Source: Candidatus Altimarinota bacterium
Lineage (GTDB): Bacteria; Patescibacteriota; Gracilibacteria; RBG-16-42-10
Direction of reading: 5' to 3'
Assembly (NCBI GenBank): GCA_017984655.1
Contig: JAGNZB010000031.1
Location: 1-12,724, forward strand
DNA: 12,724 bases
In this document: piece after piece, positions 811 to 12,724 of the stretch
How positions within the stretch are numbered: position 1 is the stretch's first letter
How the letters are laid out: each line of letters starts with the position of its first letter
The notes under the pieces: model-generated
Database searches by the model: none
Seen by the model: the letters and a program-made list of their open reading frames with translations, nothing else
What the model was told of the DNA's origin: nothing
Made by a program: the position numbers and the translations under genes

Positions 811-1320
811 ATGTTGCAATCTGTAGTTTCTGTCAAACCAAGTTCTGTGGGGAAGCTCTATGCGGTGTATGTTGGAATTTTGGTGTTCTTGGCAGGAATT
901 GTACTAGATTTGGTAGCAATTTTCTTTGGTAATCAAGCTCTCGTGCTCACATTGGAAACCATGAATGGTGCTCAGGTAGTAAATCAACAAGTGTTGCTCA
1001 ATCCATGGCAAATTCTTTTGGTTGTCTGTCTTGTGACCGTGATTGCGATGATCTTGGCATTTTTCTATGGTTTGATCGCTGCATTGCTCTTTAATCTCTC
1101 GAGTAATGTTACTGGTGGTCTTGTTTTGGATATGCGTAGCAAAGAAATTAGTGTAGCCAAGCCCGAGTCAAAGGTGGTCGTGACTAAGCCAGTAGCGCAA
1201 CCAGTGCGCCCAATTGTAGTGCAGAAGGCGGCTGTGAAGAAGGCTGCACCTGTTGTAGTAGCGAAGCCTGTTGTTGCTAAGAAGACAAAAAAAGTGACTA
1301 AGAAAAGACGCAAAGCCTAA
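811..1320 (+). CDS. Two-helix membrane protein (DUF3566-like) with basic tail
   Basis: This is a 169-residue protein of unknown function. The N-terminus (SVKPSSVGKLYAVYVGIL, from residue 7) leads into a first membrane segment at about 16-39. A second long hydrophobic segment at about 66-93 follows a polar loop, and is succeeded by FNLSSNVTGGLVL (94-106). The order 'V.P.S..KLY' start, two helices, then 'FNL....GGL' resembles the DUF3566-like membrane proteins common in actinobacteria and CPR bacteria; that assignment is from memory of the family layout. Residues 109-169 form a Lys/Ala/Val/Pro-rich tail with about 19 Lys/Arg and only two acidic residues, ending KKTKKVTKKRRKA. It resembles histone H1-like tails and could bind nucleic acid or acidic lipid (inference). 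No Shine-Dalgarno sequence precedes the ATG. Its TAA overlaps the uvrC TAG, so the genes converge with a 4-bp overlap. Confidence 0.82.
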   Translation: MLQSVVSVKPSSVGKLYAVYVGILVFLAGIVLDLVAIFFGNQALVLTLETMNGAQVVNQQVLLNPWQILLVVCLVTVIAMILAFFYGLIAALLFNLSSNVTGGLVLDMRSKEISVAKPESKVVVTKPVAQPVRPIVVQKAAVKKAAPVVVAKPVVAKKTKKVTKKRRKA

Positions 1321-3233
1321 AGTTGGTCCCGTAGCTGGTCAGCGATTGTTTCATTGACCACGGTCAGTAAATCTTCATAAGAAGCTGCTTTGATTCCCTT
1401 CACACTACCGAAGTGAGCAAGTAGCTTCTTTTTTGTTTTGGGACCAATGCCATCAATGGTGTCGAGTTTGGATTGCACCATTTTCTTACTGCGGAGATTT
1501 CGATGTCCAGTAATGGCAAACCGGTGGGCTTCATCACGAATGCGCTGGATCAAAAATAATGCTGGGCTATCGCGCTCCAGCATGATGGCTTGATTTTGGT
1601 TGGGAACAAAGATCTCCTCCTCTCTTTTGGCGAGACTGACAATTTTGGGTAATTTAACCTTGAGTCCCCCTTTTACTTCAGCTTTGAGCGCTTTGATGAC
1701 ACTGCTGAGTTGACCTTTGCCACCGTCGATGATAATTAGGTCTGGTGTTTCCGGCAAAGATAGGGTGTCGATTTTTTCTCGGCGACGTTTCTTTTTCTCG
1801 CGATAGACATTGTCCAAGTATTGGATGCGTCGAGTAAGCACTTCTTGCAAGGAAGCGAAGTCATTATTGATCCCCTCTTCGAGCTCTTTGATCTTGAAAC
1901 GTCGATAATGGCTAGCTTCAGGTTTGCCATCGATGAAAACAATCATTGAGCCAATTTTGTTGGTGCCTTGGATATGAGAGATATCATAACATTCGATTCT
2001 TCTGATCGCTTGTTTCATACTCAAAGCTTCTTGTAGTACTTTTGTAGCTCCGGTGGTATTGGCTTGTTCTCGCTCCCAGGCCTGTTTGTTGTTGATCAGT
2101 TGGAGATTGGCATTGTCTTGGACCATGTTGATTAACTGTTTGCGGTCGCCTCGTTCAGGGAGGATGAGTTGTACTTTTTTGCCTTTGATGGTGGTCAGGA
2201 ACTCTTCTAAAAGTTCCGTTTGATTGACTGGAATGCCAGTGACGATTTCGTCGGGTATTGATGCTGCGTCGGTATAGTATTGCTGGATGAATGATTCTAG
2301 TAAGGTGGCGTGGTCACTAGTCGCTGTATGATCGCTAAGGTTGAAGTGGTCAGTGCGGATGATTTGTCCTGCACGAATCATAAAGATGGCGATCACGGCA
2401 TCACGATTGTCGCTAGCGACAGCGATCACATCTTGGTTGTTGCCTGAGGTTAGTGTGGCATATTGTTTTTCGACTAGCACAGTCAGAGCTTGGAGACGGT
2501 CTCGGTATTTAGCTGCTTGTTCAAATGCTTTTTTCTCTACCGCTTCACGCATGCTTTCTTGCCAGTACTTGCGTAATTCTTGGTAATTTCCATCCAGAAT
2601 AGAGCAAATGTTGTGAATATTGCTTTGGTATTCTTCCTTGGAAACCTTGCCAATACAGGGAGCCTGACAGCGCTTGATATAATAATCAAGACATGGGGCT
2701 TTGCGACTGAGGTTGTGAATCGTAGTTTGGCCAGGAGTCACCTCAATAATATCGCCATGGCAGCTGCGATATGGGAAGAGTCTTTGGAGTCCTTTGAGTG
2801 TTTTGAAAATACTTTCTGCTGAGGTGTAGGGCCCATAGTAGTAGGCATTGCTGTCTTTTTGGAAACGACGGACGATTTCTAGCTCGGGGAAGTCGGCTCG
2901 ACGATCGATTCGGACATAGACATAGTTTTTGTCATCTTTCATCAAGATGTTGTACTTCGGGCGCAGACTCTTGATCAGGTTTGTTTCCAGGATCAATGCT
3001 TCAAGCTCAGTTCTGGTAATGGTGAATTCGATGGTGACTACTTTCTCGCGCATCACTGCTACTTTGGGAGAGATATCTTTGGTGGTACGGAAGTATGAAC
3101 TGACGCGGTTTTTGAGATTTTTAGCTTTGCCAACGTAAATTACAGTCTGATTTTCATCGATCATTTTGTAGACTCCGGCGGAGCGGCTACAGTTTTTGAG
3201 CAGTGTCTTGATCTGTGGAGGAGTAACAAACAT
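1317..3233 (-). CDS. uvrC: UvrABC excinuclease subunit C (UvrC)
   Basis: UvrC makes the two incisions beside a DNA lesion after UvrB has loaded there. All domains are present in the 638 residues. The GIY-YIG nuclease for the 3' cut spans about 17-95, with GVY at 20-22, YVG at 33-35, R43 and the metal-binding glutamate E83. Four cysteines (C158, C181, C189, C193) match the cluster-binding set of UvrC in order, but with a longer first gap than in E. coli. The UvrB-binding UVR motif is at about 214-257. The RNase H-like nuclease for the 5' cut includes CYDISH (415-420), IDGGKGQLS (502-510) and RDEAHRFA (566-573). A C-terminal helix-hairpin-helix contains GIGPKTKKKLL (595-605). The length is slightly above the usual 600-620. 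No Shine-Dalgarno sequence precedes the ATG; a TATAAC box lies about 21 bases upstream. Its partner uvrB is about 7.7 kb away. Confidence 0.98.
   Translation of the reverse strand: MFVTPPQIKTLLKNCSRSAGVYKMIDENQTVIYVGKAKNLKNRVSSYFRTTKDISPKVAVMREKVVTIEFTITRTELEALILETNLIKSLRPKYNILMKDDKNYVYVRIDRRADFPELEIVRRFQKDSNAYYYGPYTSAESIFKTLKGLQRLFPYRSCHGDIIEVTPGQTTIHNLSRKAPCLDYYIKRCQAPCIGKVSKEEYQSNIHNICSILDGNYQELRKYWQESMREAVEKKAFEQAAKYRDRLQALTVLVEKQYATLTSGNNQDVIAVASDNRDAVIAIFMIRAGQIIRTDHFNLSDHTATSDHATLLESFIQQYYTDAASIPDEIVTGIPVNQTELLEEFLTTIKGKKVQLILPERGDRKQLINMVQDNANLQLINNKQAWEREQANTTGATKVLQEALSMKQAIRRIECYDISHIQGTNKIGSMIVFIDGKPEASHYRRFKIKELEEGINNDFASLQEVLTRRIQYLDNVYREKKKRRREKIDTLSLPETPDLIIIDGGKGQLSSVIKALKAEVKGGLKVKLPKIVSLAKREEEIFVPNQNQAIMLERDSPALFLIQRIRDEAHRFAITGHRNLRSKKMVQSKLDTIDGIGPKTKKKLLAHFGSVKGIKAASYEDLLTVVNETIADQLRDQL
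1379..1434 (+). terminator. Possible intrinsic terminator inside antisense uvrC
   Basis: Read on the plus strand, AAGAAGCTGCTT (1379-1390) pairs with AAGTAGCTTCTT (1419-1430) to give a 12-bp stem with one G-U pair and a 28-base loop. The loop can fold further through TCAC/GTGA. The right arm runs straight into a T tract (TTTTGTTTT to 1439). It lies about 60 bp beyond the stop of the plus-strand membrane-protein gene, where a terminator would be needed before transcription runs deep into uvrC. The same bases encode the Lys-rich stretch of the UvrC helix-hairpin-helix region, so the T tract may merely reflect Lys codons. Confidence 0.35.
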
Positions 3234-3289: not shown

Positions 3290-4561
3290 ATGGAGATTTC
3301 TTTTTCAGTGCTTGCTGCCCTTGGTGTTGCTTTGGCAATTGGTGTGTTGATTGGTTTGGAACGTGAATCCTTGCGTCAGCATCAGAATGTGTCAATTCTA
3401 GCTGGCTTGAGAAGTTTTGTATTTATTAGTTTGTGGGGATTTTTGAGTAGCTATATTAGTACTATTTGGTTGTCTTGGTTCTTTCCAGTAGCATTTTTTT
3501 CATTCATTCTATTGATTGGTCTTGCCTACTTTGTGCGCTCGACCAAAGGAGAATTATCGGGTGGTATGACTACTGAGATTGCTTGTATTCTTACTTTTCT
3601 TTTGGCTGGATTGTCGCTTCATATGGATAACCGGATTGTTCTAGCACTGGGGGTACTAGTAGCTTTGGTATTGTCGGTGAAAGTTGCTTTTGCCAATATT
3701 TTGAAGCGCTATCCTCGAGAAGCTGTCATTGCTACCATTCAGTTTGCGGTGTTGACTGCTGTGATTTTGCCATTTTTGCCCAATGAATATATTGGTCCTT
3801 GGCAGTTTTTTAATCCTTATGTTGCTTGGTGGATTGTGGTTTTGGTGACAGGTATGAGCTATGTTGGCTACTTACTGCATTTGTTCCTCAGTAGTCGCAG
3901 TAGTATTTTTTTGACCTCAATATTAGGTGGTATTGTCTCTACTACAGCATTGACTACGACGTTCTCTCAGCTTTCTAAGGTTACGAAGTTACCGGCTTCA
4001 CTTTTGATTTGTGGTTGTATTATTGCTAGTTCTATTGGCTCTATTCGTGTATGGATCACTGGATCGATCGTCAATCGTGAATTGATAGCATTATTAGCGG
4101 TACCAATGCTACTGATTGTCTTGGTGGGATTAGTGTTTTTGTGGATGTGGCGTTCACGCTCAACTATTGTGGAAGAACAGTCATCTTTCGAGAATCCTTT
4201 TCAGCTCAAAAAGTCGATCACCTTTGCAGTGGTGTTTACGACTAGTGCTTTTTTGGCTCGCGCGAGTATGGAAGTTTTTGGTACCAATGGATTTTATATC
4301 ACTAGTTTTCTAGCTGGTTTTGCTGATGTGGATGCTATGGTTATCGCTGCCAGTCAATTTGTTGGCAATCAGACTATTACCCATTTACAAGGTCTCACGG
4401 CCATTGTGCTAGTGTTTTTTAGCAATATGGCCATGAAATGTGGCATTGTCTTTATGTTTGCTCAGGCTGCAATGCGTCGAATGATGTTGATCTATACAGC
4501 TACAGTTTGTCTAGTTCTTTTGGTTTTCTTGGTTGTTGTTCACACTTTGCACCTTTACTAG
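3290..4561 (+). CDS. MgtC/SapB-family DUF4010 membrane protein
   Basis: This is a 423-residue polytopic inner-membrane protein. The N-terminal third is an MgtC/SapB domain, with ALAIGVLIGLERE (14-26), GLRSF (39-43) and GGMTTEIACILTFLLAG (91-107). The remainder matches the DUF4010 half of the two-domain family, with PFLPN at 161-165, GGIVSTTALT (213-222), ENPFQLK (301-307) and LAGFADVDAM (341-350). I count roughly eleven hydrophobic segments. MgtC itself is linked to survival at low magnesium and to ATP-synthase control in Salmonella, but the long DUF4010 proteins have no established role, so none is assigned. The start has no Shine-Dalgarno sequence and sits 22 bases after a TATAAA box. The last 51 bases overlap the end of ileS on the other strand, so the C-terminal residues of both proteins share DNA. 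No terminator hairpin was seen after the TAG. Confidence 0.92.
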   Translation: MEISFSVLAALGVALAIGVLIGLERESLRQHQNVSILAGLRSFVFISLWGFLSSYISTIWLSWFFPVAFFSFILLIGLAYFVRSTKGELSGGMTTEIACILTFLLAGLSLHMDNRIVLALGVLVALVLSVKVAFANILKRYPREAVIATIQFAVLTAVILPFLPNEYIGPWQFFNPYVAWWIVVLVTGMSYVGYLLHLFLSSRSSIFLTSILGGIVSTTALTTTFSQLSKVTKLPASLLICGCIIASSIGSIRVWITGSIVNRELIALLAVPMLLIVLVGLVFLWMWRSRSTIVEEQSSFENPFQLKKSITFAVVFTTSAFLARASMEVFGTNGFYITSFLAGFADVDAMVIAASQFVGNQTITHLQGLTAIVLVFFSNMAMKCGIVFMFAQAAMRRMMLIYTATVCLVLLVFLVVVHTLHLY

Positions 4562-7500
4562 GAGTTCAAGTTCATCGACTTTGAGTTTCTCTTCAAGATC
4601 TGGAATCAGTGTGGTAGCTGCTAATGTGTCTGCTAGAGTTTCTTTGGCAATATAGCTGCCACAAGTATTGAGAATGCGATGAGCTAACTCTGGTTCACTG
4701 AGGACTTCGATCATTACTTGAATCCGACTGTCGACACGATAGTTGCATGTTTTTCGCATCTCTTGGATATGACGGACGATTTCGCGAGCATATCCTTCAT
4801 CGATCAGATCTTCAGTAAGATTGGTATCGAGAGCGACGACGATGTCGCCTTCACTCATCACGGTCATGCCTGGTTCCGTTTGATATACGGTATCAAATTC
4901 GTCAGCAAGTAGGGTGAATTTGTCAGCAACTGTAGCAGTACCATTGTCATTGAGCTCAAATTGATGGTCTCTAGCTGCCTGCATGATGATTTGTACATCT
5001 TGGCCATATTTTGGTCCTAGGATCTGTGCTTTTGGTTTGATCGCCTTTTGAATAGTTGCTTGTTCACTATTCGTCATATGGACGGTACGAACATTGAGTT
5101 CTTCCGCAATGACTTGTAGTTCTTCAGCCCCCAACTTGCCAGCGGCGATAATGGTAGCTGATGCTAGTGGTTGTCTTGTTTTCAGTTTGTGTGTGGCACG
5201 TAGGGCATGGCCGAGGTTGACGATATTTCTCATGAATGCCATCTCTTCATTGAGCGCTGGGCGAATGAAGCTTTCGATGGTGCGTGGATAACTGGCCATG
5301 TGGACTGAGGTGTTGCCAGTGAGATTGCGATAGATGTGTTCACTGACGAATGGTACAAATGGAGCAATGATCCTGACAAGGGTGGTCAAGACATGGTGGA
5401 GAGTCTGGTAAGCTGCGATCTTGTCTTGATCATTGTCTGTTTTCCAGAAGCGACGTCGTGAACGGCGGACATACCAGTTAGAGAGGTTGTCTACAAATAG
5501 CTCAATCTTATTGGTTGCCTCCCAAATTTGATAACTGTCTAAGAGGCCAGCTACTTCTTCTACCAGTGTATAGAGCTCAGAAAGAATCCAGCGATCCAGT
5601 TTGTGTTCACTCCACTGCATAATATAACGGTCTACACTGCCAAGGCTAAACTTCTTGTTGAGTACTTGATCTGATGGCGTGTGGTAGAAATACTTATCAA
5701 TCATTCTTTTTACTGGCCCTTGGGTAATGATCATGATGCTCTTTCCAGCATAGTTTTCCTTGATGTGGTCAAGGAAACTAAAGATGCGGATTTCAAGATC
5801 GAGATATGATTCACCTTGAGGAAACTTTTCGGCATAGGGGTTGGTAACACTTTGGAGGTATTTCTCGATATCTTCTGTAGATTTGCCATCAAAGCCTCCA
5901 ATATTGAGCTCCTTTAGTCGCTCATCAGTGGTGATTTGGATGGGGTGAAATTGGCCAATAATTTCAGCTGTTTCTTCAGAGCGCATCAGTGGGGCGATGA
6001 AAATGTGGTCGATCTGTGTTTGTTTGAATTCCTGGGCTAGTGCCTCAGCATCACGACGTCCTTTTTCGGTCAAGTGATAGGTGTGAGCACTGTCGCTTGC
6101 GATTATGCCCAAGCTATTATTTTCGGCTTCAGGATGATTGACTGCAATTACCTTTGTGAATTTCTGAGGGCTAAACTGATCGATGTTGGCATAGGTCGTG
6201 AAGAATGAGTAGACATTCCATAGTGTCAGTAAGAACTTTCGTAATGACTGCTCTACCAATCCGACAGAGAAGTTTCTGGGTTGGCCTGGAGGTGACGCAT
6301 TGAACATATACCACCGCAGTGCATCAGCTCCGTGCTTGTCGGTGACCATCATTGGTTCGACGATGTTGCCTAGCGATTTGCTCATCTTGAGGCCTTTTTC
6401 ATCGAGGATATGACCGAGACAGAGCACATTGCGATAAGGTTTCTCACCTCTGATTGCTGTGCTGATCGCCATCAATGTATAAAACCAACCACGAGTTTGG
6501 TCGATCGCTTCACAGATGTAGTCAGCTGGAAAATAACGCTCCTGGAATTCTTCATCAGCCACTGAAAATGGATAGTGAATCTGTGCCATTGGCATCGCAC
6601 CAGAGTCAAACCAACAATCTAGTACTTCCTCGACGCGATTGCTAATACCGCCACATTCACAAGTGATAGTGACTGCATCGATGTAGGGACGGTGGAGGTC
6701 AGTCTCACCGGTTTTGTTGACTGGTAGTGGTAAATTACTTTTTTTCTGTAGCTCGGTCATCGATCCCACACAGATAGTTTTGTGGCAAATTTGACACTCC
6801 CATACTGGCAAGGGCGTCCCCCAGTAACGGTTGCGAGAGATGGCCCAGTCTTTTACTTCAGATAGCCAATTACCAAAACGACCATCCTTGATGTGTTCTG
6901 GGTACCAATTGACTTCTTGGTTGTTGGCCATCAGTTGGTCACGCAATTGTGACATGCGGATGAACCATGATGAGATTGCAAAATAAATCAAAGGAGTTTT
7001 GCAACGCCAACAGTGAGGATAGTTGTGTTCGTACTTCTCTTTCTTGAGCATCAAGCCTCGAGCGCCGAGATCTTTGAGAATCTCAATGTCGAGCCCTTCT
7101 TCTTTGAAATATCGTCCACTATAAGGGCCACTGGTTTCGATGAATTTACCTTCTTTGTTGATGTGTTGTACTCGAGGTAGGTTGTATTTCTGAATCACTT
7201 GATAGTCATCTTCTCCATACAAGGCAATATGAACAATGCCTGTACCGTCGGTGGTTGTGACAAATGGTTCCGCAACAACATACCAGCCCTTTTTGTCAGA
7301 CTCCTGGTAATACGGCCATAGTGGTTCATAGCTGATATCGACCAAGTCGCTGCCGCGATAGGTAGTCTCTAGGGTGTAGGTGGGATTGCCTTCGCTGTCT
7401 TTGGGAAGAACGTCTTGGTAGGCTGTGAGTCTTTCTGTAGCAATGATGATTGATGTCTCATCATTGATTTTGATCTGACTATATTCAATATCGGCGCCAA

Positions 7501-8260
7501 CAGCTAGTGCGACATTTCCTGGTAGTGTCCAAGGGGTTGTTGTCCATGCTGCAAAGTATAATGTCGCTCCCTGATGATCTAGTTTGCTTTGATCACTGAG
7601 TTTGAATAGCGCTGTAATCGATATTTCTTTGACATTTTGGTACTCCTGCGCCACTTCGTGGCTGGAGAGCGGTGTACCACAACGGCAACAGTACGGTACG
7701 ATCTTGAGGTCTCTATACAATAATCCCTTTTCCCAGATTTGTTTCAAGCACCACCAGACTGTTTCAATGTATTTTGGTTCATAGGTCACATAAGGATTCT
7801 TCATGTCGACCCAGTAGCCAATCCGCTCGGTCATTTCTTCAAAGGCATGCGTAAACTTATGAACACTTTCTTTGCAGCGTTCATTGAATGCTTCGATGCC
7901 ATATTCTTCGATTTGTTTTTTGCCGGAAATTCCTAATTCCTTTTCTACCTGTAGTTCCACTGGAAGGCCGTGTGTGTCCCATCCTGCTTTGCGATCAATG
8001 TTGAATCCCTGCATGGTTTTATAGCGCAAGATCACATCTTTGAATACTCTGGCCAGGACATGATGGACACCTGGTTTGCCATTTGCCGTTGGCGGACCTT
8101 CATAAAAGATAAAAGGTTTGCCGTCCTTGCGTTTTTCTTGGGTCTTTTGGAAGATCTCTTGGTCATGCCAAAAGGCCAGGATTTCTTTTTCTAAGTCAGG
8201 AAAAGATTGTTTGCCATTGACGGGATCAAATGGTGTGGAACTAGGGTCGGGGGTAGACAT
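4511..8260 (-). CDS. ileS: Isoleucyl-tRNA synthetase with inserted histidine-phosphatase domain
   Basis: The enzyme charges tRNA-Ile with isoleucine in the cytoplasm. It is of the type found in Mycobacterium and Thermus (IleS2-like). The HIGH-equivalent is GVHH (64-67) within PTANGKPGVHHVLARVFKD, and KMSKS is at 625-629. The CP1 editing domain (about 190-410) contains AAWTTTPWTLPGNVAL (237-252) and GTGIVHIALYGEDDY (339-353). Two zinc sites are complete: C191/C194 with C417/C420, and C489/C492 with C534/C536. The anticodon-binding domain begins at LDRWILSEL (888-896) and includes NWYVRRSRRRFWK (928-940). The C-terminal region with EDLIDEGYAREIVRHIQEMR (1150-1169) is the DUF5915-type tail. Relatives are about 1040 residues long; this one has 1249, and the excess is an inserted domain at about 701-884. 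The Asn/Gln-rich last 13 residues lie in the overlap with the mgtC-like gene. No Shine-Dalgarno sequence is present. Confidence 0.98.
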   Translation of the reverse strand: MSTPDPSSTPFDPVNGKQSFPDLEKEILAFWHDQEIFQKTQEKRKDGKPFIFYEGPPTANGKPGVHHVLARVFKDVILRYKTMQGFNIDRKAGWDTHGLPVELQVEKELGISGKKQIEEYGIEAFNERCKESVHKFTHAFEEMTERIGYWVDMKNPYVTYEPKYIETVWWCLKQIWEKGLLYRDLKIVPYCCRCGTPLSSHEVAQEYQNVKEISITALFKLSDQSKLDHQGATLYFAAWTTTPWTLPGNVALAVGADIEYSQIKINDETSIIIATERLTAYQDVLPKDSEGNPTYTLETTYRGSDLVDISYEPLWPYYQESDKKGWYVVAEPFVTTTDGTGIVHIALYGEDDYQVIQKYNLPRVQHINKEGKFIETSGPYSGRYFKEEGLDIEILKDLGARGLMLKKEKYEHNYPHCWRCKTPLIYFAISSWFIRMSQLRDQLMANNQEVNWYPEHIKDGRFGNWLSEVKDWAISRNRYWGTPLPVWECQICHKTICVGSMTELQKKSNLPLPVNKTGETDLHRPYIDAVTITCECGGISNRVEEVLDCWFDSGAMPMAQIHYPFSVADEEFQERYFPADYICEAIDQTRGWFYTLMAISTAIRGEKPYRNVLCLGHILDEKGLKMSKSLGNIVEPMMVTDKHGADALRWYMFNASPPGQPRNFSVGLVEQSLRKFLLTLWNVYSFFTTYANIDQFSPQKFTKVIAVNHPEAENNSLGIIASDSAHTYHLTEKGRRDAEALAQEFKQTQIDHIFIAPLMRSEETAEIIGQFHPIQITTDERLKELNIGGFDGKSTEDIEKYLQSVTNPYAEKFPQGESYLDLEIRIFSFLDHIKENYAGKSIMIITQGPVKRMIDKYFYHTPSDQVLNKKFSLGSVDRYIMQWSEHKLDRWILSELYTLVEEVAGLLDSYQIWEATNKIELFVDNLSNWYVRRSRRRFWKTDNDQDKIAAYQTLHHVLTTLVRIIAPFVPFVSEHIYRNLTGNTSVHMASYPRTIESFIRPALNEEMAFMRNIVNLGHALRATHKLKTRQPLASATIIAAGKLGAEELQVIAEELNVRTVHMTNSEQATIQKAIKPKAQILGPKYGQDVQIIMQAARDHQFELNDNGTATVADKFTLLADEFDTVYQTEPGMTVMSEGDIVVALDTNLTEDLIDEGYAREIVRHIQEMRKTCNYRVDSRIQVMIEVLSEPELAHRILNTCGSYIAKETLADTLAATTLIPDLEEKLKVDELELLVKVQSVNNNQENQKN
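5609..6160 (-). other. Degenerate histidine-phosphatase domain inside IleRS
   Basis: IleRS residues about 701-884 form a phosphoglycerate-mutase-like (histidine phosphatase) fold inserted between ANIDQFSPQ (end of the catalytic core) and HKLDRWIL (start of the anticodon-binding domain). Family motifs appear in the right order: VNHPEAENNSLGIIAS (707-722), HLTEKGRRDAEALAQEF (729-745), IAPLMRSEETAEII (755-768), RLKELNIGGFDGKS (781-794), FPQGESYLDLEIRIFSFL (813-830) and IMIITQGPVKRMI (842-854). An active member has RHG in the first motif and a His in 'HG' of the last. Here they read NHP (708-710) and TQG (846-848). The first His, the internal Arg (R760) and the acidic E784 remain. Loss of the Arg and the second catalytic His predicts little or no phosphatase activity; a binding or structural role is inferred. 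Confidence 0.88.
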
Positions 8261-10585: not shown

Positions 10586-10617
10586 GAATTACAAATTACA
10601 AATTATAAATTACAAAT
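10586..10617 (+). repeat. Left arm: AATTACA heptad repeat
   Basis: After an initial G, the heptad AATTACA is repeated four times (the third copy is AATTATA), ending in AAT. This arm is the reverse complement of 10886-10917 with two mismatches. It begins directly after the T tract of the upstream terminator. Confidence 0.92.
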
Positions 10618-10768
10618 GGAGGAAAATAGCAGTTAATTTGGAATGGGGAATTTAGAACCACTCACACGACACCACCCATCATCAGGCTTTCCATTTACGT
10701 TTACCTTTCCCTTCACTTTTATGGTCCCTTCCTGATTCCTTATCCTCATTCTCTTCTTCCGGCATCCA

Positions 10769-10830
10769 GAGCGAATGCGAAGGATTCTGCCCCCCTTCCC
10801 GCCTCCTGAGCGTAGCCGAAGGACCTTGCC
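10769..10830 (+). repeat. Pair of GAGCG....CGAAGGA direct repeats
   Basis: Two 23-base copies lie at 10769-10791 and 10808-10830. They share GAGCG, CGAAGGA and terminal TGCC and match at 17 of 23 positions, with 16 bases between them. The second overlaps a 6-bp hairpin (10825-10845). They lie inside the 332-bp element. Confidence 0.7.
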
Positions 10831-10885
10831 GAGTATCGTGGCAAGTACTGCAAATCCACAAAGTCACTCTCGAGCCCCGAGCCTC

Positions 10886-10917
10886 ATTTGTAATTTGTAA
10901 TCTGTAATTTGTAATTC
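10886..10917 (-). repeat. Right arm: inverted AATTACA heptad repeat
   Basis: On the minus strand this reads G plus four AATTACA-type heptads (the third copy is GATTACA) plus AAT, matching the left arm at 30 of 32 positions. It ends eight bases before the candidate -35 box of uvrB. Confidence 0.92.
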
Positions 10918-10982: not shown

Positions 10983-12724
10983 ATGGAACAAAAAAAGTTT
11001 AGACTAGTCGCTCCTTATGAGCCGACTGGTGATCAGCCTAAAGCGTTGGCTGCTTTGGTGAAGGGAATGGAAGAAGGAAAAGTCCATCAGACTCTTTTGG
11101 GTGCTACAGGTACGGGAAAGACGTTTATTATGGCCAATATTATCAATCAGGTGCAAAAACCGACCTTGATTTTGGCTCATAATAAGACTTTGGCTGCACA
11201 GTTGTATGCAGAGTTTAAGGATTTCTTCCCTGATAATGCAGTCAATTATTTTGTCTCTTATTATGATTATTATCAGCCAGAGGCTTATATTGCGCGTTCG
11301 GATACCTATATTGAGAAGGATGCCTCGATCAATGAAGAAATCGATAAATATCGGCATGCGGCTACACGCAATCTGTTGACTCGTAAGGATGTGATCATCG
11401 TGGCATCAGTCTCCTGTATTTATGGACTGGGCTCAGTAGAAGAATATGGCAATATTGCAGAGAAGGTAGCTGTCGGTATGTCTTACAAACGAGAAAAATT
11501 GCTTCGTCACTTGGCTGATATGCAGTACAAGCGAAACGAGGTGGCCTTTGTGCGTGGTACATTCCGAGCTCGTGGTGATGTAGTTGAAGTGCATCCTACC
11601 TACAGTGATACTGCACTGAGAATCGCTTTTTTTGGTGATGAGATTGAGTCGATCGATGAGTTTGATACATTGACGGGTGAGATAGTGGCCCATTTCCAGT
11701 CGACCGAGATTTTTCCAGCTAAGCATGCCGTCACCTCTCGTGAGACTTTGTTGCGAGCAGTAGAAGGGGTCAAGATTGATTTGGAGGCAAGGCTGAAGGA
11801 GCTAAATGGTATTGGCAAGATCGTCGAAGCTCAGCGTCTCAAGCAACGTACGGAATATGATATCGAAATGATGATGGAGACAGGCTACTGTAGTGGTATT
11901 GAGAACTATACTCGCTATTTGGGTAACCGGTCACCAGGAGAACAGCCTGCTACTTTGATGGATTATTTTCCTGATGACTATTTATTGTTTATTGATGAGT
12001 CCCATATTACGATCCCCCAGATTGGTGGTATGTATAATGGTAATTTGGCTCGAAAGAAGAGTTTGATTGATTATGGTTTCCGTCTGCCATCAGCTTATGA
12101 CAATCGCCCACTGACATTTCAAGAGTTTGAAGGGCAGGTCAACAAAGCTGTCTATGTGTCAGCAACACCTCGTCAGTATGAACTGGATAAGTCAGGTGGG
12201 GTGGTGGTCGAACAGTTGATTCGTCCTACAGGTCTACTTGATCCGACTATTGATATCAGACCAACTCAAAACCAAGTTGATGATCTTTTGGTAGAGATTA
12301 AAAACCGGATCAAAGCTGACGAGCGAGTGTTGGTCACGACACTGACGAAGCGTATGTCTGAAGACCTGACTGAATACTTGCAAGAAGCGGGCATCCGAGT
12401 GAAATACCTCCATTCAGATATTGAAACACTAGTTCGTCTAGATATTCTTCGCGATCTTCGTCTCGGAGTGATCGAGGTGGTGGTTGGTATCAATCTCCTT
12501 CGTGAGGGTTTGGACCTTCCTGAGGTGAGTTTGGTTGTGATTCTTGATGCTGACAAAGAAGGTTTCTTGCGTTCAGATATGGCTTTGATTCAGACTGTTG
12601 GTCGTGCTGCTCGTAATGCGCATGGGCACGTTATTATGTATGCTGATCGGATGACAGATTCGATGAAGCGGGCGATCTCCGAGACTGATCGTCGTCGCGC
12701 TATTCAGGCTGCATACAATAAAGA
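10983..12724 (+). CDS. uvrB: UvrABC excinuclease subunit B (UvrB), 3'-truncated
   Basis: UvrB is the helicase-like damage-verification subunit that receives lesions from UvrA and recruits UvrC. The window holds 580 codons and two bases; the normal length is about 660-680, so only the C-terminal end, including the UvrC-binding UVR motif, is cut off. Visible motifs are Walker A GATGTGKT (40-47), the beta-hairpin [20 protein letters not shown] (93-112), which inserts between the DNA strands, DESH (338-341), YVSATP (391-396), [13 protein letters not shown] (502-514) and QTVGRAARN (537-545). The start at 10983 fits the candidate promoter and the usual UvrB N-terminus ([14 protein letters not shown]). 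In-frame ATGs at 10950 and 10953 would add eleven or ten residues and are less likely. No Shine-Dalgarno sequence precedes it. The gene is intact as far as seen. Confidence 0.98.

Follow-up and report, generated by a model that had tools for sequence, protein, structure and literature searches.

The window (the whole 12,724-nucleotide stretch of DNA analysed here) carries an ileS gene on its minus strand (4511-8260), whose frame is open throughout and encodes an isoleucyl-tRNA synthetase (IleRS) of 1249 residues. The protein scored 952.9 bits against TIGR00392, exceeding the equivalog cut-off of 621.4, and comprises a class I catalytic domain with its editing domain (PF00133; residues 27-659, 6284-8182), an anticodon-binding domain (PF08264; residues 889-1032, 5165-5596) and a C-terminal domain of the DUF5915 family (PF19302; residues 1049-1239, 4544-5116), all on the minus strand, as are the features described below within this gene. 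The KMSKS signature is present and the HXGH position reads GVHH (residues 64-67, 8060-8071), as it also does in the IleRS of L036 and P0001-P0007. Among 55 IleRS open reading frames from the same bacterial class, HXGH was found in 45 and HYGS in two, while six gave no match to the pattern. GXHH has been described as a mupirocin hyper-resistance motif of type 2 IleRS (PMC10485003).

Comparison of the window IleRS with a profile built from nine IleRS that belong to the same class and lack inserts revealed 180 extra residues (703-882; 5615-6154) at core position 684, between the catalytic and anticodon-binding domains. The original prediction had placed about 185 extra residues at 5609-6160, inserted in frame into an otherwise complete and cleanly read synthetase, and the profile gap, the open frame and the TIGR00392 score bear this out. 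The linker at this site in insert-free relatives is mostly 21-31 residues long, with a maximum of 43. The insert matches Pfam His_Phos_1 (PF00300; E 3.7e-28; 98.9 bits against a gathering score of 21.7), the family to which the original prediction had pointed, over residues 707-890 (5591-6142) and over positions 4-190 of the 194 in the profile. The linker of a complete IleRS thus houses, in frame, a whole histidine-phosphatase-superfamily domain. The same architecture recurs in P0001, which is 96% identical to the window protein, in P0002-P0007 and in L036 from a genome of the same family, which rules out an assembly accident, and the IleRS of Abawacabacteria bacterium RBG_16_42_10 matches at 71% across window residues 7-1240.

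The solved structures nearest to the insert are the phosphatases 1ebb and 1h2e (PhoE-type; E 3e-15), and when the insert was compared on its own with NCBIfam, the models that came closest were CobC and archaeal dPGM, both scoring below their cut-offs (for the CobC-like TIGR03162, E 8.4e-27 and a score of 93.7 against a cut-off of 162.9). These relatives are free-standing, whereas the window domain is embedded. Active PhoE- and CobC-like histidine phosphatases carry an RHG motif and a second catalytic histidine, where the window insert has NHP and a glutamine. Read from an alignment with other histidine phosphatases, the five catalytic positions R-H-R-E-H are N708-H709-R760-E784-Q847 in the window domain, so that two of the five are substituted. 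The ordered superfamily motifs claimed in the original prediction are thus present in part: the nucleophile His709, the pocket Arg760 and the acidic Glu784 are retained, but the RHG motif has decayed to N708-H709-P710 (6131-6139) with loss of its arginine, and Q847 (5720-5722) replaces the second catalytic histidine. Since the RHG arginine and the second histidine are both missing, we refer to the insert as a degenerate homologue and not as a histidine phosphatase. PMC3866925 reports that in two mycobacterial members the histidine of RHG is the phosphorylated residue, and that Rv2135c, with the variant motif RHA, has acid phosphatase activity. From the mechanism of the family, the two losses in the window domain would be expected to abolish activity.

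Among its closest homologues, P0001 has the same five residues as the window, and P0002-P0004 have Q-H-R-E-N. In contrast, the sister sequences P0005-P0007 and L036 keep R-H-R-E-H, with RHT instead of RHG. Two censuses place these substitutions among other copies. In the first, which covered 163 proteins fetched by homology (one contributing search being the best 120 of 1079 matches), all five residues were present in 140 of 140 copies of the A1 type (four of them in valyl-tRNA synthetases, ValRS), three of four at site A2, three of five at site C and 19 of 23 at site B, the site of the window insert; the four incomplete B copies are P0001-P0004, the nearest homologues of the window domain. 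In the second, made from the class open reading frames and 22 of the fetched proteins after six short histidine-phosphatase fragments had been dropped, IleRS copies were complete in 34/35 cases at A1, 4/4 labelled A1b (best read as site A2, with about 31 core residues between copies), 4/5 at A2, 4/6 at C and 16/19 at B, and complete copies elsewhere numbered 10/12 in ValRS, 0/1 in AlaRS, 1/1 in UvrB and 23/24 among free-standing proteins. With the window and P0002 excluded, 73 of 81 embedded rows had all five residues. Joint loss of the arginine and the second histidine was confined, among the copies compared, to the window's clade; single losses include the second histidine in L149 (the first of three copies in a ValRS) and the arginine in the free-standing L171. 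Given the complete sets in the sister rows and in 73 of the 81 other embedded rows, the catalytic loss is derived. The retention of every catalytic residue in A1-site copies suggests a selected function at that site.

Embedded histidine-phosphatase domains are widespread in the class. Our class sample comprised 60 genomes (59 relatives and the window's own), from which 55 IleRS open reading frames were read, 54 fetched and that of the window, five of them partial. His_Phos_1 was found in 36 of the 55 (18 of 28, 17 of 26, and L076), at four core sites, near positions 490 (A1), 520 (A2), 555 (C) and 683 (B), and two open reading frames, L064 and L070, contain three copies each. This survey qualifies the statement of the original prediction that known IleRS have only a short linker at this point: many relatives do have a short linker at site B, yet IleRS with an embedded domain of this kind are common in Patescibacteria. 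Outside the class, 38 IleRS loci were read from a phylum sample of 64 genomes, 26 of which were not read; these loci comprised 26 that were returned and 12 chosen because their match was broken near A1 or otherwise odd, and L185, L188 and L189 were omitted. His_Phos_1 was present in seven of the 38, in each case at A1 and in one of the 12 chosen loci, so that the rate is biased, and the IleRS of the Nomurabacteria locus L184 also has the domain. No His_Phos_1 was found in the 12 Bacteroidota IleRS loci read of 15 returned. When the A1 copy of a Yonathbacteria IleRS was used as a query, 1079 proteins matched at E values up to 0.001, and the best 120 of these all combined PF00300 with synthetase domains. 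Such A1-site IleRS of Patescibacteria (e.g. P0008 from Yonathbacteria) resemble the window protein in carrying an inserted His_Phos_1, but the insertion lies about 190 core residues earlier, in the catalytic half (core 490), and this combination of IleRS with PF00300 is already apparent from the precomputed Pfam lists of the database. Separately, the phosphatase domain is missing from the long IleRS frames of five loci outside the class (L199 and L205-L208), of which four have some 130 additional residues around core 490.

In a tree of 99 histidine-phosphatase domains (L082, L087, L088, P0147, P0148, P0156 and P0162 being omitted), the B-site copies fell into three groups, and the window clade, supported at 100/100, adjoined an IleRS A1 copy (97/69, not a starred node). 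Forcing all B copies into one clade cost 51.7 log-likelihood units, and a single origin of site B is accordingly disfavoured, the rejection being marginal (p-AU 0.039) and the tree roots unsure. Copies at site C formed one clade (100/99). The AlaRS copy was nested among ValRS copies (99/84) and the ValRS copy P0157 paired with an IleRS A1 copy (99/89), suggesting that domains have moved between hosts or came from a shared donor. A grouping that would point to a recent transfer of a copy between the UvrB and the IleRS of a single genome received an SH-aLRT of 97 in a quick tree; the careful tree did not recover this clade, and we do not claim such a transfer. In a tree of the IleRS core, obtained by a quick method with the five partial open reading frames omitted, the root was unsure and four outgroup rows did not fall on one side of a branch; here the window protein and L036 grouped with an insert-free IleRS from another class (SH-aLRT 100). 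The minimum numbers of changes on this tree were four for B, eight for A1, five for A2 and four for C, with weakly matching f11 open reading frames scored as A1 and B. Together with the GVHH motif of the window clade, these placements favour a separate gain in the window's lineage.

Embedding is not restricted to IleRS. PF00300 occurred in large frames of 40 of the 60 genomes scanned, with ValRS as host in 11, and AlaRS (L150) and UvrB (L147) in one genome each. A role specific to IleRS was dropped because of the ValRS hosts, and the role linked to tRNA or translation envisaged in the original prediction is weakened, though no more than weakened, because UvrB carries the same domain. Free-standing PF00300 was absent from 22 of 40 genomes with an embedded histidine phosphatase versus 4 of 20 without one (Fisher p 0.013, a value that ignores kinship and comes from incomplete genomes), a pattern that fits embedding as the relocation of an enzyme. 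The window's genome encodes four other, free-standing PF00300 genes with complete catalytic residues. However, spare copies alone would not suffice to explain decay, as the same-family genome G001 has more such genes (eight PF00300 matches) yet keeps its embedded copy intact.

Other small enzymes are nested in the same manner. Inserts in IleRS also include Nudix, GNAT, serine hydrolase and IS200-type Y1 transposase domains. For example, the IleRS of L060 contains a Nudix domain, two histidine-phosphatase copies and a serine hydrolase, and those of L060, L064, L070 and P0133 reach 1569-1792 residues with three or four nested enzyme domains; a further insert in L064 (723-903) has no Pfam match and resembles the serine hydrolase of L060. 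A serine hydrolase was found in five LeuRS open reading frames (one without its N-terminal part) and in one UvrC, and one LeuRS contains two Nudix domains. In genome G009, UvrB (L147) carries histidine-phosphatase and serine-hydrolase domains and UvrC (L195) a serine hydrolase. An IS200-type Y1 transposase (PF01797) was confirmed in frame inside the IleRS editing domain of L075, and from position and sequence we infer the same for L077 and L078. GNAT-like inserts in the IleRS of L072, L080 and L081 recall the NCBIfam family ileS_w_GNAT (NF040702), which likewise represents IleRS with a built-in small enzyme but a different domain; the window protein scored 341.9 against its cut-off of 1999. 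Mycobacterial MutT1 is an end-to-end fusion of a Nudix domain and a histidine phosphatase. It likewise joins a histidine phosphatase to another enzyme, but the partner is Nudix, the domain is not nested and no synthetase is involved, and the MutT1 model NF052459 matched the window protein at an E value of only 0.066. The window's genome (G000) had 18 Nudix matches, the highest number among the 25 genomes searched. Synthetases with extra domains are well known; here, the same small enzyme occupies four sites of one synthetase, with up to three copies per protein, as well as other synthetases and a repair protein. In our reading, large housekeeping proteins have repeatedly received small enzymes in loops that tolerate insertion.

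Divergence of the insert was compared with that of the surrounding protein. Between degenerate pairs, the insert diverged at 1.4-2.6 times the rate of the core and 0.7-2.1 times that of the C-terminal domain, versus 1.3-1.4 and 0.6-0.7 times, respectively, between active-type pairs. The highest ratios were those of the window against P0001 (2.6 times core, 2.1 times C-terminal domain), while cross-comparisons gave 1.0-1.2 times the divergence of the C-terminal domain. Constraint on the degenerate insert therefore seems somewhat relaxed, yet still present. Blocks that persist across degenerate and active-type rows include MIDKYFxHTPS (M853-S863; 5672-5704), identical at 10 of 11 positions in five degenerate and three active-type rows and a candidate packing surface, and KFPxGESYLDLE.

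The combination of relaxed but constrained divergence with conserved blocks leads us to regard the window insert as most likely a catalytically dead, still folded module. The window's lineage would have acquired the domain independently of the other site-B groups, and what it acquired was probably an active phosphatase akin to domains embedded elsewhere. Catalysis would then have been lost, possibly after free-standing homologues in the genome had made it dispensable, and the folded, inactive module would have been retained, since an essential gene is expected only rarely to lose such a stretch cleanly and in frame, and misfolding would be costly. At the level of the class, IleRS and other large housekeeping enzymes would carry small enzyme domains in permissive loops, and the activity carried need not concern translation. 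We assign a probability of roughly 0.6 to this account as a whole, that is, to a separately gained phosphatase that lost catalysis and was kept as a folded dead module, together with the use of large enzymes as domain carriers.

The main rival, which we consider unlikely though worth weighing seriously, is that the insert is a working part without catalysis, which tunes IleRS activity either by binding to tRNA, to a partner or to a phosphorylated ligand, or by bracing the linker. The conserved blocks that we attribute to a dead module would also fit such a retained binding or packing role. The superfamily match likewise persists despite the loss of catalytic residues, the insert has in cross-comparisons diverged about as much as the C-terminal domain, and its site is one that we take to lie beside the tRNA path, as in class Ia synthetases. 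However, many relatives have only a short linker here, occupation of the site by three histidine-phosphatase groups points to permissiveness and not to one interface, and the divergence between the window and P0001 hints at relaxed constraint. A phosphatase that serves the synthetase, with intact copies acting on an aminoacylation by-product or damaged substrate (for example a nucleotide or a tRNA 3'-end phosphate) and this function lost in the window, appears improbable. Among the hosts found, editing-type synthetases (IleRS, ValRS and AlaRS) predominate, A1-type copies are uniformly complete, and synthetase domains accompany PF00300 in each of the best 120 of the 1079 matches; but UvrB has the same domain, loops of such hosts also accommodate Nudix, GNAT, serine-hydrolase and Y1-transposase domains, and embedded copies tend to go with missing free-standing ones, as would be expected of a general cell need.

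That the window domain is still an active phosphatase with an altered active site could draw on the retained His709, Arg760 and Glu784, three of the five catalytic residues, and on the activity reported for the RHA variant Rv2135c (PMC3866925). This seems very improbable, as RHA keeps both arginine and histidine, whereas the arginine and the second histidine are both absent from all five subclade rows (the window and P0001-P0004). A spliced element (an intron or intein) or an assembly artefact is scarcely credible: introns are numerous in the rRNA genes of CPR bacteria (PMC11270868), but what is inserted here amounts to a full enzyme domain, and the architecture is repeated in other assemblies. 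An Rfam search of the window gave no match that would indicate an intron, and a Pfam scan of the window IleRS found no intein family.

Beyond this locus, we tentatively propose, as a generalisation somewhat more likely to fail than to hold, that in Patescibacteria, most of all in the class of the window, large and essential nucleic-acid enzymes (IleRS, ValRS, LeuRS, AlaRS, UvrB and UvrC) serve as a chassis for a limited, recurring set of small enzymes (histidine phosphatase, Nudix, GNAT, RBBP9-like hydrolase and IS200-type transposase). Such domains would move from site to site and from host to host, take the place of their free-standing genes and occasionally decay where they sit, as in the window. 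If true, this would represent genome compaction by nesting, of which we found no description in open-access PMC; nor did we find there any description of repeated insertion of the same enzyme across synthetase sites and hosts, which does not prove that it is unreported. The window's clade, where a degenerate domain and its active-type sister occupy one site, is a natural experiment that makes it testable whether a nested domain benefits its host enzyme or is just a passenger. The question bears on how enzymes are stored in small genomes and on the automatic annotation of such proteins.

Elsewhere in the window, ileS lies between uvrC and uvrB (1317-3233 and 10983-12722), with other genes intervening, and no insert was found in UvrC or in the visible part of UvrB. 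A 689-residue beta-helix protein (PF13229; 8448-10517) with a repetitive Ser/Thr/Pro linker may, at a guess, be secreted. At 10586-10917, an element of roughly 330 bases is bounded by 33-nucleotide terminal inverted repeats composed of 7-base units; similar DNA occurs at dozens of places in the genome (102 matches), and the element looks like a high-copy, non-autonomous, MITE-like mobile element.
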